Assembly (NCBI GenBank): GCA_027062165.1
Contig: JAMOTU010000224.1
Location: forward strand, 1-16,380
Direction of reading: 5' to 3'
DNA: 16,380 nucleotides
From: Candidatus Altimarinota bacterium
Lineage (GTDB): Bacteria; Patescibacteriota; Gracilibacteria; Absconditabacterales; Absconditicoccaceae
Positions 1,479-11,500 of this stretch are shown piece after piece. A program made the translations under genes and the position numbers. The notes under the pieces are model-generated. The model was not told where the DNA came from and did not search any database. It saw only the letters and a list, made by a program, of their open reading frames with translations. Each line of letters begins with the position of its first letter. Positions within the stretch are counted from its first letter, which is position 1.

Positions 1479-1499
1479 TTGCATACTTATTTAAATGAA

Positions 1500-2255
1500 A
1501 TGTTAAGAAGAAAGTTTATTTATGTTATCTCTTCATATTCTATAGATATAGTTAAGTACTTAAGAAATAATAAAATTTCTATTAGAAAATGAGGTCCTTT
1601 ATATTTTTTTGAAAAATATGTAAATAGAAGTAATGTTGATTTAGAGTTAAAGTTTTTAAATTTAGGATTTTGTATTGTAGAAATTGAGAGAACAGCGGAA
1701 GAGGAATATTGAACTATACTTTTAACAAAGCAACTTGAGAAATTTAAATTTAAAGAAAAGGATTTTGATAATTTACTTATTTCTTTTATAAAAGATGAAT
1801 TTAGTTTTATAGATATAAATTGATATAAAGCCAAAAATTTGTTTGTTGATATCCAATGATATTATAGAGTTTTAAAATGAGAGTGTTACTTAACTAAAGA
1901 TTTGTTACCTCAATATGATAATTTATTTATCAAGGCTACAGAAGAAGAATTTAATATATTAGATAATAGTTTCAAACAGGAAGTTTTAAAACAGCAAGTT
2001 GTTTTAATAACTAGAGGTAATAAGTGAGTTTTTCTAAGTGATCGTTGAAAGAAATATGAAATGTTACCTAATCGTATTGTTAATTGTAAAGATACAATAG
2101 GAGCGGGAGATACTTTTTTTATAAGTTTTGTTTGAAACTGGCTTGAAAATTGAAATATAATTTCTGCTACAAGAGAAGCTATGATTGATGTAGAAAATTT
2201 TTTATCGAATAAAGATAAGGAATCTGAAAAAGATAAGATATTTAATTTATTTTAG
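1500..2255 (+). CDS. PfkB-family carbohydrate/nucleoside kinase (251 aa)
   Basis: PfkB kinases transfer the ATP gamma-phosphate to a hydroxymethyl group of a sugar or nucleoside in the cytoplasm. PfkB signature 2 is clear: DTIGAGDTFF at residues 198-207, with GAGD forming the anion hole and Asp204 the expected catalytic base. It is preceded by the usual VVLITRGNKGVFL strand-turn (residues about 170-182). The N-terminal GG that contacts substrate is Gly31-Gly32, the first encoded by TGA. At 251 aa it is short for the family (about 300), mainly in the N-terminal sugar-binding lid, so the substrate cannot be assigned. ATG 1500 is chosen because the fold begins there (FIYVISSYSIDIV); no Shine-Dalgarno sequence is present. 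It begins 21 bp after the preceding broken frame. No terminator follows. It could be a ribokinase, adenosine kinase or HldE-like kinase relative. Confidence 0.85.
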
Positions 2256-2404: not shown

Positions 2405-2410
2405 TATAAT
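2405..2410 (+). promoter_or_regulatory. Putative -10 box (TATAAT) of the leader RNA
   Basis: A consensus TATAAT sits at 2405-2410. The -35 is poor: the best candidates are TTTAGT at 2384-2389 (15-bp spacing) or GATTTA at 2382-2387 (17 bp). Transcription would start at about 2416-2419, which is at or next to the ATG of the leader peptide, so the leader mRNA may be leaderless. This follows spacing rules and has not been mapped. Confidence 0.45.
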
Positions 2411-2415
2411 TTAAG

Positions 2416-2508
2416 ATGGTTAAAGATAATTTAAATTGAATAATTTTGTATCTTCATCACCATCACCACGTAGCTCCAGGAAGGGGCTATTTGTGGTGAT
2501 GGTTTTAA
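2416..2508 (+). CDS. Putative His-rich attenuator leader peptide (30 aa)
   Basis: The frame runs from ATG 2416 to TAA 2506-2508. Codons 14-18 (2455-2469) are five consecutive histidines, CAT CAC CAT CAC CAC, followed by VAPGRGYLWGWF. Two TGA codons (2437-2439 before the His run and 2497-2499 after it) must be read as Gly for the peptide to be made as drawn. The His codons occupy the 5' arm of the first leader hairpin, as in the enteric hisL leader, where stalling for charged tRNA-His frees the second arm. The stop codon lies just past the second arm, so a ribosome finishing the peptide would cover that arm. An in-frame TTG at 2446 is an alternative start. There is no Shine-Dalgarno sequence. 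The His run could also be a by-product of the stem sequence ACCATCACCAC, so translation is inferred. Confidence 0.5.
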
Positions 2509-2571
2509 TCTTAAGTTAAAATATAAAATGAAGTATTCTTATACTAGCCATCATCAGTAATAGCCTCTTCC
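2459..2571 (+). promoter_or_regulatory. Transcription attenuator: competing leader hairpin and antiterminator
   Basis: Helix 1:2 pairs ACCATCACCAC (2459-2469) with GTGGTGATGGT (2493-2503), 11 perfect pairs, and continues inside as TAGCTCC (2471-2477) with GGGGCTA (2483-2489) around the loop AGGAA. Helix 2:3 pairs 2479-2502 with 2548-2571: 22 of 24 positions pair (two as G-U), with mismatches only at 2492/2558 and 2493/2557. Helix 2:3 takes up the whole 5' arm of the terminator (2564-2571) and the 3' arm of helix 1:2, so 1:2 plus terminator and 2:3 exclude each other. A small hairpin, AGTAT (2532-2536) with ATACT (2541-2545), sits in the loop of 2:3. This is the logic of amino-acid attenuators. 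Expected behaviour: a ribosome held at the His codons frees segment 2, 2:3 forms and the gene at 2623 is transcribed. A ligand- or protein-operated switch with the same helices is possible. No T-box specifier or conserved T-box sequence was seen. Confidence 0.75.
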
Positions 2572-2599
2572 TAAAGGATTTTAAAGGGAAGAGGTTTTT
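2564..2599 (+). terminator. Intrinsic terminator of the attenuator
   Basis: The arms CCTCTTCC (2564-2571) and GGAAGAGG (2587-2594) make an 8-bp stem with a 15-nt loop, followed at once by TTTTT (2595-2599) and ATTTAT. It lies 24 bp before the ATG at 2623 and after no complete upstream gene, so it acts as leader terminator of the downstream gene, with its 5' arm shared with the antiterminator. Confidence 0.85.
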
Positions 2600-2622
2600 A
2601 TTTATATTTTAAAAAGATAGCT

Positions 2623-3174
2623 ATGAAGAAAAGATTGCAAATTTGAGTTATGGGATCGGCTGCTGATTTAGGATATGAAAGATTGATAGAAGAAAGAGCT
2701 ATAGAGTTGTGAAAAGAGATAGCTAAGAGAGGACATATTCTAATTTTTTGAGCAGAAAAGGATGTTTATAGTCTTTCATCGGCTGCTGCTAGAGGGGCTA
2801 AACAAATGGGTGGTTTAACAGTATGAATTACTTATGGTAGATATCCAGATATTTATCCTTTAATGAAACAGTATACGGATGTTATTATATGTAGTGGAAT
2901 GGATAGAGGATGATGAAGAGAATTTGTATTAGTTTCAAGTTGTGATGCTATAATAACAATATGATGATGAAGTTGAACTTTAAATGAGATTACAGTTGCT
3001 TATCAGAAGAAAATACCTATTGTAGTTATGAAATGAACTTGAGGTTGGTCTGATAGATTAGTAGATACATATTTAGATGATAGATATAAAAAGGATTCTA
3101 ACAGATTTATTTGTAAATGAGTAGAAACTGCAAAAGAAGCTTTAGATTATATTGAGAATATTTTTAGATTTTAA
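2623..3174 (+). CDS. TIGR00725/LOG-family Rossmann nucleotide-binding protein (183 aa)
   Basis: This is a single-domain cytoplasmic protein of the SLOG/LOG superfamily (lysine-decarboxylase-like fold, including cytokinin riboside-monophosphate phosphoribohydrolases and DprA). The N-terminus RLQIGVMGSAADLG is the first Rossmann strand and loop. The signature GGGSGTLNE is at residues 114-122 (LOG enzymes have PGGxGTxxE), with Glu122 the expected catalytic or binding acid. It is followed by KIPIVVMKGTGGWSDRLVD, closer to the TIGR00725 branch than to canonical LOG. SGMDRGGGREFVLVSSCDAI precedes the signature. Thirteen codons are TGA, including all four glycines of GGGSGT (2962-2976). Length fits TIGR00725 (about 160-180). 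The biochemical role of TIGR00725 proteins is not established, so I do not claim phosphoribohydrolase activity. Expression is probably controlled by the attenuator that ends 24 bp upstream. No Shine-Dalgarno sequence is visible. Confidence 0.85.
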
Positions 3175-3502: not shown

Positions 3503-4345
3503 ATGTCAGAATTACAAAAAAATCAAGAAATTGAAAGACAACCTGAGACAGAAAAAAGCAATTTTCTAGAAATAAAAAAACAATTAGCAGCACTTTTAGC
3601 AGCAATATGAATATGAGTTTCAGGAGCAGTTGATAATGTAGGAAAGGTGATAATACCTTCAGCGTATGGAGCTGAGGTTAAAAAGGAGATTAGAGAAGAT
3701 TTGAAAAATATAAAAGTTGTGGAAGTAAAGAATATGAAAGAGTTTGAGGATTATGTGGTTAATAAATTAGATAATACTCAAAATGCAGCTATTATAAAGA
3801 TTAATAAAGATAATTTTGATGAAAAATATTATAAAGAGAATATAGATAATAATTTTTGGAATATTAAAGTTTTAAAGATTTGGGAGGAAGGAGGATATAA
3901 ATATTTTTTGATTTCCGGAAGCAAATTTAAAGAGACTAATGAAGGATTTAGAGAAATAGTGGTAAAGTTAGAAGAAAAGGTAAGGAAATCAGAAGAAGAG
4001 AGAAGGAAATCAGAAGAAGAGAGAAGGAAATCAGAAGAAATAGTAGCATATTATAGATTTGAATTGGAGATGAATAGACTTATAGTATTTTTAAATTTCT
4101 GAGAGAATGTAGATATTTTAGAAAAATATAATTGGAAATTTTCTAGAAAAAAATTGGAACAGATAAATGAGGATTTAGATAAAATATCATTGTTGAAGGT
4201 TGATGAAGTTACGTTTAAACAATGGATAGATACTTTAAAAAAGTTGGAAGAAAGATATCCTGATATGAAAAATTTAATAGAAAAGATAATAAAAAACTTG
4301 AAGTCTAAAAAAAGAATTACTCCGACAATGTTTGCGAGAAGATAA
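3503..4345 (+). CDS. Unrecognised membrane-anchored or exported coiled-coil protein (280 aa)
   Basis: After a polar N-terminus (about 20 residues), residues 26-43 form one hydrophobic helix, KQLAALLAAIGIGVSGAV, followed by IIPSAYGAEVKKE, which has a possible signal-peptidase site near residue 56. The remainder is presumably outside the cytoplasm. Residues about 65-150 form a mixed domain with the sequence YKYFLISGSKF, and residues about 155-185 a coiled coil containing three copies of the heptad RKSEEER. The C-terminal part is helical (DKISLLKVDEVTFKQWIDTL) and ends basic. TGA codons in the membrane segment and at 4100-4102 read as Gly and join the frame; without them the gene would appear as two short pieces. 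It is followed 29 bp later by another unrecognised helical gene, which suggests an operon and perhaps a shared complex. No homologous family comes to mind; a surface or attachment protein is only a guess. Confidence 0.8.
3983..4039 (+). repeat. 21-bp tandem repeat, three copies (RKSEEER heptads)
   Basis: The unit AGGAAATCAGAAGAAGAGAG plus A runs at 3983-4003 and 4004-4024, with a third copy from 4025 diverging after 15 bp. The two full copies are identical at the DNA level, so the expansion is recent or still changing. Each unit is exactly one coiled-coil heptad. Confidence 0.9.
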
Positions 4346-4374: not shown

Positions 4375-6324
4375 ATGAAAAAAAATAAAATATTAGAGAT
4401 ATCTGATAGTTTTAATATGAAAGAAAAAAAGGAAAATAAGGAGAGTATCTTATATAAAAAAGTTTCTGAAGATATAGAGAAATCTCATCAAGATATTATG
4501 GATATGATAAGAAGCGATAAAGTAATTAATAAGTTTTATAAAAAATTAGATTTTAAAGATAAGGTAGCTTTTGTTTTGTTGTTAGATGATTTAAGGAAAC
4601 AATGAAAAGATATATATTTTATTAGTAAAGTAATTTCTAAATATCCTAAAAAAATGTTTTCTTTGTTGGAGATTAAATATGATGATGTCAAAAAATTATT
4701 AGTTTTAGAGAAAAAGTATAAAGAGAATAAAGAGATAATTAAAGAGAATAAAGAGATAATTAAAGAGAATAATGAAATAGCAGAGATTTTAGAAAAACAG
4801 AAAAAAGAAATAAAAAGTCGGATAAATCAAAAACTGAAGAAAGCTCCTGAATTTGAAAAACCAATAAAAGATCAATCTAAACAAATTTCAGAAAAATATG
4901 GAATATCTCAAGATGAGGCATTTATATATGTATTCAATAAGTTCTACCAAGAAAATCAACAATTTGCTAACAAAATATGAGATATACCTTCTCAATATAA
5001 ATGATTGATAGAATCTATTACTAAGAAAGTAGAAGAGCAAATAAAAGTTTCTGAAAAGGTAGAACAGATATCTTGAGCAAAGCAATGAATAAGTGCTTTT
5101 TCAGAAAAATCAGTTTATGATAATGATTTAAAATCAAAGGTAGAAGGTGTTAATATAGAAAAATTAGATTTTAATCAAAAGTTAAAGATTTTTAATAATT
5201 TGTTTGATATTTATAAATCCGATATTCAGAAAGATTTGGTAAAATATAATTTAAATATAGAGAAAGTTGAAAAGTATTTAAATTGAGAAAAGTTATCAGA
5301 TCAGGAGACTGAGAAAGTAAATCAAGTATTTATAAGGTATTTGGAAACATTTAATAAAGAATTTGAAAATACTTTTTTGAAAGAGTATAAAAAAAAAGCT
5401 ATGGAAAAGTATGTTAAAGAGACATTAGATTTGTTTTATCAGATAACAGGATGAGAAGGTATAGAATATAAAAGTGTAGATATAAAGTCTGATTGACAAA
5501 TAAATATAAATTTTAAGTATAAAAATACGCCTTTATATATGAGAATTGACAAAGAAGGTAATATTATAATGGAAAATTATACTTATTTTTCTCAGGGACT
5601 TTACAAGTTGTGAGAAGAGAAAGTAAATGATTTTTTTGAGTTTGTAGGTATTAAACAGATAATGGAAGGGGTTGAAAATATGTCAGCTGAGGAGTTTTTA
5701 ATTTTTTGAAAGGAGTGGAAAAATAAATTGGATAGTTTTATAGAAGATAAGTTGGATAAATTTTATCAAGAAAATGATAGATTGTGAAATAAAAATTTGA
5801 TGAAAGCAGAGATGAATTATGAATTAACAAGACAAGATATAAGTTATAGTTTTATAAAATTTTATGTTCCTCCAGAGATTAGACAAAAGTATTTAACTTG
5901 AAATTTTGAGATAACTCAAGAAAAAGATAAAGATTTTTACAATTTTTTAAAGACTATTGATTATAGTTTAAGATTTCAAAAAGGTAGTGAAGAAATATTA
6001 GAGAAAGTTTTAACAAGTAGGCAGTTTAGATGTGTTCTAGATGATCTAAGTTACCAAGAAGACAGTATTTCTACTTATAGTTTTTTGAGAGAGTTGAAAT
6101 TGATTTCTTCAGAATGAAGTTTTAATTTAGAAAGGTTTAATAAGTTTGTAAATCTTTTGGAAAAGTCTGCTTGAAATGCAAAAGCATTGAATTTATTGAA
6201 TTGATTATTTCCTATAAATTGATATGAATGGGAAGTAACAAGTGATGGAAAGGTAAAGTTGGTAAAACAAGAATTAGATTTAGATTTTTCTGATGTAATT
6301 GAAAAAGAAAAGGTAAGTGTTTAA
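4375..6324 (+). CDS. Unrecognised large helical, coiled-coil protein (649 aa)
   Basis: One frame runs from ATG 4375 to TAA 6322-6324 with many TGA-Gly codons. There is no signal peptide or membrane segment, so it is probably cytoplasmic unless exported otherwise. The N-terminal 110 residues are charged and helical. Residues about 106-150 form a coiled coil with the heptad KENKEII repeated twice and a partial third copy. Residues about 165-185 (SEKYGISQDEAFIYVFNKFY) and the central part are helical. A region around residues 375-405 is beta-like (QINIKFKY-type alternation, then LYMRIDKEGNIIMENYTYFS), which hints at a small folded domain. The C-terminus is acidic. It follows the 280-aa gene after 29 bp and ends about 100 bp before a terminator, so the two probably share a transcript. 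I cannot assign it to a family; no catalytic motif stands out. Confidence 0.85.
4720..4779 (+). repeat. 21-bp tandem repeat, two full and one partial copy (KENKEII)
   Basis: The unit AAAGAGAATAAAGAGATAAT plus T is at 4720-4740 and 4741-4761, identical, with a diverged third copy from 4762. It encodes heptads in the coiled coil of the 649-aa protein. The unit length matches the repeat in the neighbouring gene, though the sequence differs. Confidence 0.88.
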
Positions 6325-8591: not shown

Positions 8592-11500
8592 ATGATACGT
8601 AAATTTGCTGAGTTTTGGATAAAAAATGGAAAGATAACAGTCATTTTTATGATAATTTTTATGATTTGGTGAATATTTTCTTGGTTAGTTATACCAAAGC
8701 AATATAATCCTGATATAATTGTCCCAGCTTTTAATATAATAGTTCCTGCACCTTGATATAATGCAAAAGAAGTTGAGAATCTTATTGTAAAACCTTTGGA
8801 AAATAAACTTATGGAGATAGAATGAGTAGAGCACGTTTATTGAGTAGCTCATGCTGATCGGGGTGCAGTAATGGTTTCTTTTTATGTATGAACAGATAAA
8901 GAAAAAGCAACAACAAGGCTTTATAATAAAATTTTTGCTAACATAGACCTTTCTCCTTTGGGTGTTCAAAAGCCTATTATTAAGCCTATTGATCCAGACG
9001 ATATTCCTATATATACTTTTGCTATAACAAAAGATAATTTAAATGTATGTAGTTGAGTTATTTATTCTGGTTGTAAAACTGATATTGATTTAAGAAAAGT
9101 AGCTGTAGATGTATTAGATAAAATTAAATATGTAGAAAATACATCAGTTTTTTATTTAGTTTGATGAGAAAATGACAATATTAATATAAAATTAGATTTA
9201 GATAAACTAGAAGCAAAACATATTGATATAATGCAAGTATGGCAAGCTTTAAAGAAAAATAATATTGTTTTTCCGTGATGAGAAATAAGAAATGATAAAG
9301 AAAAAGAAATTTTACAAGTAGACTGAAATTTGAATGATATAAACAAAGTAGCTAATCTTATAGTGTGATATTATAATGGTTCTCCTGTATATCTAAAAGA
9401 TGTAGCTTTAATATACAAAGGTATTACCAAGAAAAAATATTTTACTTTTTATCAACCTAGTTTAAAATATTCTACACACAATACTTGAATTTTTAAAGAT
9501 GCTATTTTTATTGGTGTGGCTAAAAAAAGAGGAACAAACGCGGTTTTTGTGGTAAACGATTTAAAGGAAAAACTTAAAGAAATTCAAAATGACTTACCAA
9601 AATGATTTAAGATTGTAGAGATACAAAATGAATGAAAAACTGCAAAAGAAGCTACGGATATGCTTTTGATAAATTTGATAGAGTCTATTATAATAGTATT
9701 TTTCGTTTTATGGATATATCTTGGAATAAAAGATGCATTTAATAATGCTATGGCTATTCCTCTTACTTTAGCTTGAACAATTGGTTTAGCTTTAATATTA
9801 GGAGATAATATTAACAGAATTACACTTTTTGCTTTGATTTTAGTATTGTGAATGCTTGTTGATAACTGAACTGTTGTAGTAGAGAATATTACTAGACATT
9901 TAGAGATGAGAACTAAATCTGGTAAAACAACTTTACAAGCAATATTAGATGCTGTAGATGAAGTATGAGTATGAGTTATTTTATCTACTATAACAAGGAT
10001 TTTGGCATTTATTGCGATGTTTTTTGTTACTTGAATGATGGGTCAATATATGGGTCCTATTCCTAAATATGCAATTATTACTCTTACATTGTCTCTTTTG
10101 GTAGCGTTTTCTGTTAATCCGTTTTTATCTTATGTTTTTGCTAAAAGACCTGAAATAAAGGAGGAAAAGAAAGATTGTGCTAAAGATTTAGTTTGTGAAG
10201 TAGAAGATGTTGCTAAACATTGATTACATGAAGTAAAAAGGACTTGGATAGAAAAGAAATATTTGCAAATTATGAGATCATTGCTAGGAGATGAAAATAA
10301 AGTTAAAAGAAAAATATTTAAATTAGCTTTTTGGAGTTTGCTTTTTGCTGTAATAATTGTTCCACCATCTTTGGGAATATTTAAAGCTAGGATGCTTCCA
10401 AAATCTAATAAAGAGCAGATTTATATTTGGATAGATACTCCTAGAAGTCGGAGTATATATCAGACTATGAAAGTTTCTCAGGATTTAGGTAAATTTTTGT
10501 CCTGTTTTACTTATTCAGGTCAAAAAACAGATTTTTGTAGTAGTTTATATAAAATTTTGAAAATTTCAGATGAAGAGACTAAAAGTCTTTCAATTATAAA
10601 ATGAGTTGCTTGGTGGGTAGGTATAGCTCCAGTACCAGATTTTGCTAATACTTTCCGTAGTTCTATGATGAGAAATTGAGAACAATATATTTCTACAAGA
10701 GTAAATCTTATCTCGGTTGATAAGAGAGATATTTCTTCTGAGCAGTTTACGATAGCTATTAGACCGTATCTTAAAAAGTATCTTCTAGCAAAATATCCTG
10801 ATATTAAGGTTAGACTTTTGGAAGATCCTCCTGGTCCTCCTGTAAGAGCTACGTTTATGTTAAGAGTGCAAACAGAATCTGAAGTTGATTATTCAAAACT
10901 AGAGAAATTAGCAGATTGGCTTTATAAAAAATTATTACCTATATTTAAAACGCATCAAGTTGTAGATGTTTATACTTCCAAAGAGCATTATCAAACAAAG
11001 TGGATTATTAAGTTAGATCATGAATTGATTACTAGACTAGGTTTAAATGTAGAGCAAATTGCTTATACTATTTATAATTTTTTTGGATGATGAGTTAAAG
11101 TTTCATTGTATCATGATAGTAATACTAAAGAGCCAATTAATATAGTAATTGCTGGTTTAGATTCTCAAACAAAAGATATAGATACTTTAAAAAAGATTTA
11201 TTTTACTAATAAACAGTGAAAACAGATACCTTTGTTAGAAATTGCTAAAATTATACCTGTAGCTTATGATAAAACTATTTATGATGATGACAGATACCAA
11301 ACTGTCTATATTTATTGAGAGATGGGTGATAATAGCGTAGTATATCCTGTGATTAATATTTATAAGGAGTTTTTAGATCCTGCTTTTTGGGAAGGAAGTT
11401 ATAAACTTTTGAGCTGGGGACCTTATTGATTTTGGATACAAGATATAAAAACAGGTGAGAAATATAGGCTGCGGTGGTGAGGTGAATGGAAACTTACAAT

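Follow-up and report, generated by a model that had tools for sequence, protein, structure and literature searches.

A probable histidine-responsive attenuator upstream of a LOG-like gene in a UGA-recoded member of the Patescibacteria

The window, by which we mean the whole 16,380-nucleotide stretch of DNA that was analysed, is one entire contig (G000:C224) of a 1.08 Mb genome of Candidatus Altimarinota bacterium that is 76% complete, and the genes of this contig are open only when TGA is read through. The gap between a PfkB-family ORF, which ends at 2255, and a LOG-like gene (2623-3174) holds a short element, the features of which are collected in Table 1 with the leaders of related loci discussed below. 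The product of the LOG-like gene matches Pfam LDcluster4 with E = 1.4e-30 (106.4 bits, cut-off 26.3) and scores 106.8 bits against NCBIfam TIGR00725, for which the cut-off is 106.9. PfkB-like genes are also found near LOG in 6 others of the 34 loci that we compared. Further downstream in the window, the ORFs at 3503-4345 and 4375-6324 gave no Pfam match; the former carries, by eye, a short repeat of AGAAGGAAATCAGAAGAAGAG near 3985-4040.

Table 1. Features of the element and its flanking genes in the window, and leader sequences before LOG at other loci.
Feature	Position	Strand	Basis or remark
Upstream PfkB-family kinase ORF	1479..2255	+	context gene
TATAAT, possible -10 box (candidate)	2405..2410	+	by eye; 5 nt before leader ATG
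Leader ORF, 30 residues, MVKDNLNGIILYLHHHHHVAPGRGYLWGWF, stop	2416..2508	+	translation with TGA = Gly (code 25)
Five tandem His codons CAT CAC CAT CAC CAC, proposed sensor	2455..2469	+	sequence, translation
Arm 1, pairs with arm 2	2459..2477	+	minimum-energy fold
Arm 2, pairs with arm 1 or arm 3	2479..2503	+	fold, shuffle test
Arm 3, antiterminator partner of arm 2	2548..2571	+	22/24 positions
Intrinsic terminator, stem 2563-2572 / 2586-2595, 13-nt loop	2563..2599	+	T run 2595-2599
LOG-like protein, TIGR00725 / SLOG cluster 4 (LDcluster4), proposed target	2623..3174	+	183 aa, 13 in-frame TGA
L114, free leader			MITNKTNKPHHHSLLMPIEKLV, stop
L116, free leader			MKLINITILHHHSSPVAEKLG, stop
L120, free leader, frame end			MKNVVFNSHHHDLKSSEKS, stop
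L131, free leader			MQNIFSKLSHHTNPFPLGEVG, stop
L132, free leader, frame end			MIQNIHNLHHHNHPS, stop
L128, leader = hisR end			...HHRPLSSGKK, stop
L133, leader = hisR end			...KHHTSSSSKKGLA, stop
L134, leader = hisR end			...NASHHTPLPVGKGLR, stop
L138 and L142, leaders = hisR end			...GAQHHH...

The leader ORF of the window contains two TGA codons, and the standard code would stop its translation at codon 8. Reading it requires UGA as glycine, which would make the regulatory element itself dependent on the altered code. Codons 27 and 29 are TGG (Trp). Were the TATAAT ahead of the ORF a true -10 box, the leader transcript would be leaderless; a consensus promoter scan returned matches not above chance and none on the + strand ahead of the window leader.

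Folding of 2416-2600 without constraint yields the hairpin 2459-2477/2483-2503 together with the terminator, at -57.4 kcal/mol compared with -34.1 +/- 3.6 for shuffled sequences (z = -6.48; 0/200 shuffles as low), and the first helix proposed in an earlier note on this DNA is thereby present in the minimum-energy fold. The alternative pairing that the note described, between arm 2 and 2548-2571 over 22 of 24 positions, was recovered when counted by hand for 2479-2502, two of the pairs being G-U. Its terminator, with a 5' arm within arm 3 and a closing TTTTT at 2595-2599, is likewise found (-15.0 kcal/mol for the stem), as is the leader stop just past arm 2, a TAA at 2506-2508. The placing of five His codons in arm 1 stands only in part: there are five codons, but the first starts at 2455, before arm 1 begins. 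A simple terminator scan limited to loops of 3-8 nt gave no match at the window, where the terminator loop is longer. The antiterminator, scored as the post-His segment against the terminator 5' arm, was better than dinucleotide shuffles (p = 0.002); helix 1:2 was not unusual in the same kind of test (p = 0.22). A DNA-similarity search for copies of the leader in its own genome and 59 relatives produced only short, weak matches, and a five-His-codon pattern was matched in 22 of the 49 genomes of the window's family, the window being one.

We then used a folding model that masks a ribosome footprint on one leader codon after another and computes, by equilibrium folding, how probable the terminator stem is. 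In the window this probability is 0.98 without a ribosome, with a ribosome at the stop and along most of the leader. On the five His codons it falls to 0.40, 0.01, 0.00, 0.00 and 0.48, with 0.72 and 0.75 on the adjoining codons. With three other footprints the dip moves by about one codon, and values of 0.80-0.87 can then occur at the outermost His codon on either side. A ribosome on either Trp codon leaves the value at 0.98. The constrained and unconstrained folds that the earlier note called for agree with its expectation, the terminator being released only on or beside the His run. Since the dip is a single contiguous stretch, circular shifts put the value of its match with the His run, taken alone, at no more than 1 in 30. 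A cruder kinetic check, with the RNA cut before arm 4, found arm 3 paired at 0.94 with the ribosome at His and at 1.00 with the ribosome at the stop, and is thus uninformative for the window.

The comparison with relatives began from a LOG gene in a named Gracilibacteria MAG (L071), 64% identical to that of the window, with a PfkB-LOG gap of about 25 nt and no leader. It stands in the order hisR - hisS - hisIE - aspartoacylase-like - PfkB - LOG, and because of this neighbourhood of histidine genes the LOG search was widened. The LOG type was found in 8/353 genomes of the class, 9/379 of the phylum and 15/380 of another class, and in 5/49, 1/13 and 2/10 genomes of further sets, with overlaps among the sets and at E thresholds of 1e-30 to 1e-50. 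Thirty-one genomes together with L072, L073 and L074 gave 34 orthologous LOG loci, larger stretches being taken for 29; the LOG paralogues L028-L040 and the LOG relative L075 (34% identity) were omitted as too distant. The 13 loci L028-L040 showed no His leader by eye, and a search of viral contigs for LOG relatives found none.

We asked of each locus for an open frame with tandem His codons, a stop and a downstream terminator-like hairpin, all within 420 nt of the gene, a rule formulated after the first leaders had been noticed by eye. Controls (n = 345) came from the same stretches and comprised the remaining ORFs of 100 codons or more, whose starts were assigned mechanically. The layout was present at 12/34 LOG loci and 8/345 control genes (Fisher p = 2.8e-9), and at 11/33 LOG loci when the window was omitted; 22/34 LOG loci lacked it, among which L074 (205 nt upstream) and L122 (122 nt) were counted as without leader. 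Tandem His was the most enriched of 19 amino acids before LOG. Ala came next (AA, p = 0.005), and other tandem codons were mildly enriched (GG 0.011, SS 0.013, LL 0.023, II 0.027), in part because more LOG loci have a terminator-like hairpin upstream (25/34, against 191/345 controls). Tandem Trp, by the same rule, occurred at 0/34 LOG loci. Three of the eight control hits precede hisI of L119 and two genes of L128, one encoding a GNAT protein downstream of LOG and the other, of M14 type, next to LOG. One rule-passing locus, L140, was dropped, because its antiterminator did not exceed shuffles (p = 0.54) and the HH is part of the conserved HisR body. The 11 accepted loci come from 8 genera and 8 families.

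The conservation in relatives on which the earlier note let its reading depend is missing at the closest level: the leader is absent at the three other code-25 LOG loci (L071, L139 and L141), which speaks against the reading. It does recur in the wider Patescibacteria. A LOG tree places the LOG of the window in one group with those of the three other code-25 loci (96/83 support) and requires about seven changes for the leader, at least three of them by well-supported branches. This scattered distribution indicates that the switch was repeatedly gained, lost or transferred.

The accepted leaders take two forms. Free leaders occur in the window and in L114, L116, L120, L131 and L132; at the five other loci, a His-tailed 3' end of hisR, a predicted histidine repressor gene, would take the place of the free leader. 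Among the 11 hisR genes that adjoin LOG, five carry a His tail beyond the end of the family, and all five have a terminator before LOG. The six without the tail have a terminator in two cases, L140 and L131, the latter with a free leader of its own; the untailed L072 has only a weak hairpin of -6.7 kcal/mol. The recurring leaders differ in their nucleotide sequence, and both His codons are used among them. L114 and L116 belong to one genus, but of the nine residues ahead of HHH only Met is common to both; the three His codons are kept with all their third positions changed, which is hard to explain without translation of His codons.

Several observations lie outside this set. In L119 (G966; about 1430-1900) hisI is preceded by a leader, MKNLNTTIHHHEQAQAI and a stop, with a terminator, near hisG, so that in CPR a His leader would also stand before a histidine gene of a second kind. 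L128 (G756) has a second His leader, MTLLSFYLLHHHNRLF and a stop, with a terminator before the GNAT gene 10540-11088; its position inside the LOG cluster suggests that there are perhaps two switches in one operon. In L073 (a Nomurabacteria LOG; about 1530-1700) TTGACA/TATTAT stands 6 nt before the ATG of MGFLIKFSVNYHTRPVGRSSFC and its stop, a leader with antiterminator and terminator but a single His codon. By eye, the leader ATG lies about 5-11 nt past a -10-like box in L114, L116, L119 and the window, and such mRNAs would be nearly leaderless.

Loci for the structural tests were picked by His codons and terminator, and not by pairing of arm 2, except for L136 (three scattered His) and L073, which were added by eye after their terminator and pairing had been noticed and stand outside the 12/34. 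Both entered the shuffle, arm-swap and His-versus-stop tests, and L136 alone also the circular-shift test. The terminator and antiterminator are mutually exclusive, having one arm in common. The antiterminator was better than shuffles (p < 0.05) at 11/14 loci (Fisher combined 3e-15) and at 9 of the 11 accepted loci; those that missed, besides L140, were L116 (0.080) and L138 (0.068). Helix 1:2 exceeded shuffles at only 3/14 loci (combined 0.003), the window not among them, and hence looks optional. Cognate arm pairs averaged -21.9 kcal/mol and swapped pairs -13.6, with 0/20,000 permutations as good (15 loci). The result was again 0/20,000 for 10 loci selected on no other grounds than His codons and terminator, a set meant as one locus per genus that includes L140 and two loci of a single genus (L133 and L134), and for the nine without the window. 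The stop falls inside arm 2 or at its first base in 8/11 accepted loci and 5-18 nt past arm 2 in the other three, the window among these.

Of the 17 leaders to which the ribosome-position model was applied, 12 had a terminator that was less probable by 0.2 or more when the ribosome stood on the His codons and not at the stop (mean 0.45, Wilcoxon p = 5e-5), a drop seen in 0/5 of the remaining control hits. In 15 leaders, 20/20,000 circular shifts separated His from other codons equally well. Holding of arm 3 before arm 4 is made rose by 0.42 on average in the 17 leaders, but by 0.68 in 2/5 controls. Two resting states were predicted. In the window, L116, L138, the L119 hisI leader and the L128 GNAT leader the terminator is formed without a ribosome (P 0.78-0.98) and a ribosome at His opens it. 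In L114, L128, L132, L134 and L136 the antiterminator is the resting state (terminator P 0.00-0.07 without a ribosome), and termination starts when the ribosome comes within 1-2 codons of clearing the His codons; the switch point of L114 falls just ahead of its His codons. The model had no effect in L120, L140 and L142 and almost none in the leader of the M14-type gene (L128), and in L131 and L133 an effect appeared with only one of two footprints.

The genes around LOG were surveyed by local similarity search over -5/+6.5 kb, flanks being incomplete at several loci. At least one of hisR, hisS, hisI/IE, hisG and hutH is present near LOG in 25/34 loci (hisR 13, hisS 11, hisI/IE 5, hisG 4, hutH 4). 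The window contig has no his gene, being one of nine such loci, and neither HisR nor hisS was recognised in its own genome at 76% completeness, where the hisS model matched C176 (which reads as thrS by eye) and C46. The hisR gene (YerC/TrpR-like) adjoins LOG on the same strand in 11/34 loci; six of these eleven were scanned with NCBIfam and all were above the TIGR02531 cut-off, as were 7/7 hisR proteins scanned overall. Also above their cut-offs were HisS of L071, HisG and HisI of L119 and the histidine ammonia-lyase of L129; HisI of L134 (125.9 vs 126) and HisIE of L071 were below. Behind the switch, L134 has the order LOG - hisG - hisI (HisG Pfam E = 5e-12), and L138 and L142 have LOG - hisIE - hisG, the hisG call being weak (E = 6e-6 in L142, by cluster membership only in L138); the LOG of L142, matched over 131/169 model positions, may be broken.

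Relatives of hutH (histidine ammonia-lyase) were seen near LOG in L121, L127, L129 and L137, with that of L129 checked against NCBIfam. LOG-domain fusions occur at 4101-5360 of L131 and 4004-5008 of L136, where LOG is joined in one of the two genomes to a domain of the aspartoacylase type (AstE_AspA) and in the other to a HAD hydrolase domain, which hints at the pathway. A protein of about 300 residues (cluster c1; L072 8540-9505 and 15 other loci) lies near LOG in 16/34 loci; the member scanned matched no Pfam family and weakly resembles adenine phosphoribosyltransferase.

Ribosome-mediated attenuation that senses charged tRNA-His is known from Proteobacteria and Firmicutes. According to one study (PMC9413887), Firmicutes groups without HisR have attenuators in which three to five His codons occur, HisR (YerC) is predicted to be a histidine repressor, and T-boxes control histidine genes in Firmicutes. 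The window resembles the enterobacterial his attenuator (RF00514 His_leader; PMC9413887) in its short leader ORF with tandem His, its 1:2, 2:3 and 3:4 helices, its stop beside arm 2 and its terminator with a T run. It differs in that its gene encodes a LOG-like enzyme, its leader needs UGA as glycine and its host belongs to another phylum, and with only 14.1 bits (gathering 49; E = 7.9) it is not a member of RF00514 by score. The His attenuators of the Bacillus cereus group, Peptostreptococcaceae and Erysipelotrichales share with it a run of 3-5 consecutive His codons and attenuator, terminator and antiterminator hairpins (PMC9413887); they precede histidine biosynthesis operons, whereas here the first gene is LOG, and they occur in groups without HisR, whereas several CPR relatives possess HisR and five use the end of hisR as leader. 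The adjacency of a YerC/TrpR-like gene to LOG in 11/34 loci recalls the HisR (YerC) histidine regulon of Firmicutes (PMC9413887), although no such regulator was found in the window's own genome. Full-text literature searches, covering top-ranked titles and abstract openings and few subscription papers, returned no CPR report of such an attenuator, in keeping with what the earlier note had said. The E. coli rph-pyrE attenuator takes its translated leader from the end of the protein gene that lies upstream, and it senses UTP through coupling of transcription and translation. The hisR-tailed variant is alike in using the end of the upstream gene as leader; rph-pyrE differs in sensing UTP, with no run of amino-acid codons. 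We know of no other case in which a His-tailed extension of hisR serves as a leader.

The his-type attenuation that the earlier note had proposed is supported by the folding model, by 10 other loci and by the histidine neighbourhoods, and we consider it very probable that transcription of the LOG-like gene at 2623 is governed by a ribosome-mediated attenuator specific for histidine. Control would be exerted through the charging of tRNA-His. When charged tRNA-His is scarce, the ribosome would stall on the His run and cover arm 1; arm 2 would then pair with arm 3, the terminator would be blocked and the LOG gene transcribed. When tRNA-His is charged, the ribosome would reach the stop beside arm 2 and cover that arm, leaving arm 3 to pair with arm 4, and transcription would end.

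Other explanations have to account for both the helices and the codons. A switch that is independent of translation, with helices that answer a ligand or protein and His codons that simply come with the repeated arm sequence (CATCACCATCACCAC pairing with GTGGTGATGG), could draw on the overlap of the His run with arm 1 in the window and on its ability to pair in L134, and pairing alone could preserve the letters. We regard this as distinctly unlikely: the His codons of L132 and L128 are present although they stand upstream of the pairing arms, L114 and L116 keep His despite three third-position differences, none of the other 18 amino acids is as enriched in tandem as His, and an Rfam scan of the window found no family at gathering score. 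An ordinary intergenic terminator with an inverted repeat and a chance His-rich ORF would sit well with the three other code-25 loci that lack the element and with the abundance of terminator-like hairpins among control upstream regions (191/345). Such a coincidence is nevertheless very unlikely in view of the window antiterminator (p = 0.002), the fold (z = -6.48) and the recurrence of the layout at 10 other loci.

Two further possibilities concern what is sensed. The two Trp codons of the leader might suggest that another amino acid, such as tryptophan, is the signal; with a terminator probability of 0.98 when the ribosome is at the Trp codons, and tandem Trp at 0/34 LOG loci, we judge this extremely unlikely. 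A histidine T-box that binds tRNA with no leader peptide has a precedent in the T-box control of histidine genes in Firmicutes (PMC9413887), but no T-box family matched at the gathering threshold or up to E = 10, and the leader ORF, the stop position and the His codons would be left unexplained; the probability of this arrangement is close to negligible.

Taken together, the loci tip the balance modestly towards a joint reading in which histidine attenuators recur in Patescibacteria, as a free leader or as a His-tailed hisR, and LOG belongs to a histidine-linked pathway. If the hisR-tailed form is as it appears, a single gene would both encode a predicted repressor and gate the genes that follow it by the charging of tRNA-His, these being LOG and, in some cases, also hisG and hisI. 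In our judgement, the regulation of genes in CPR bacteria is still poorly understood. A codon-specific sensor present across families would show that these host-dependent cells monitor their charged tRNA-His, and would imply that transcription and translation are coupled in CPR. It would also link an uncharacterised LOG-family enzyme to histidine. Should the joint reading be true, the LOG-like enzyme would act in a histidine-linked pathway that is as yet undescribed.
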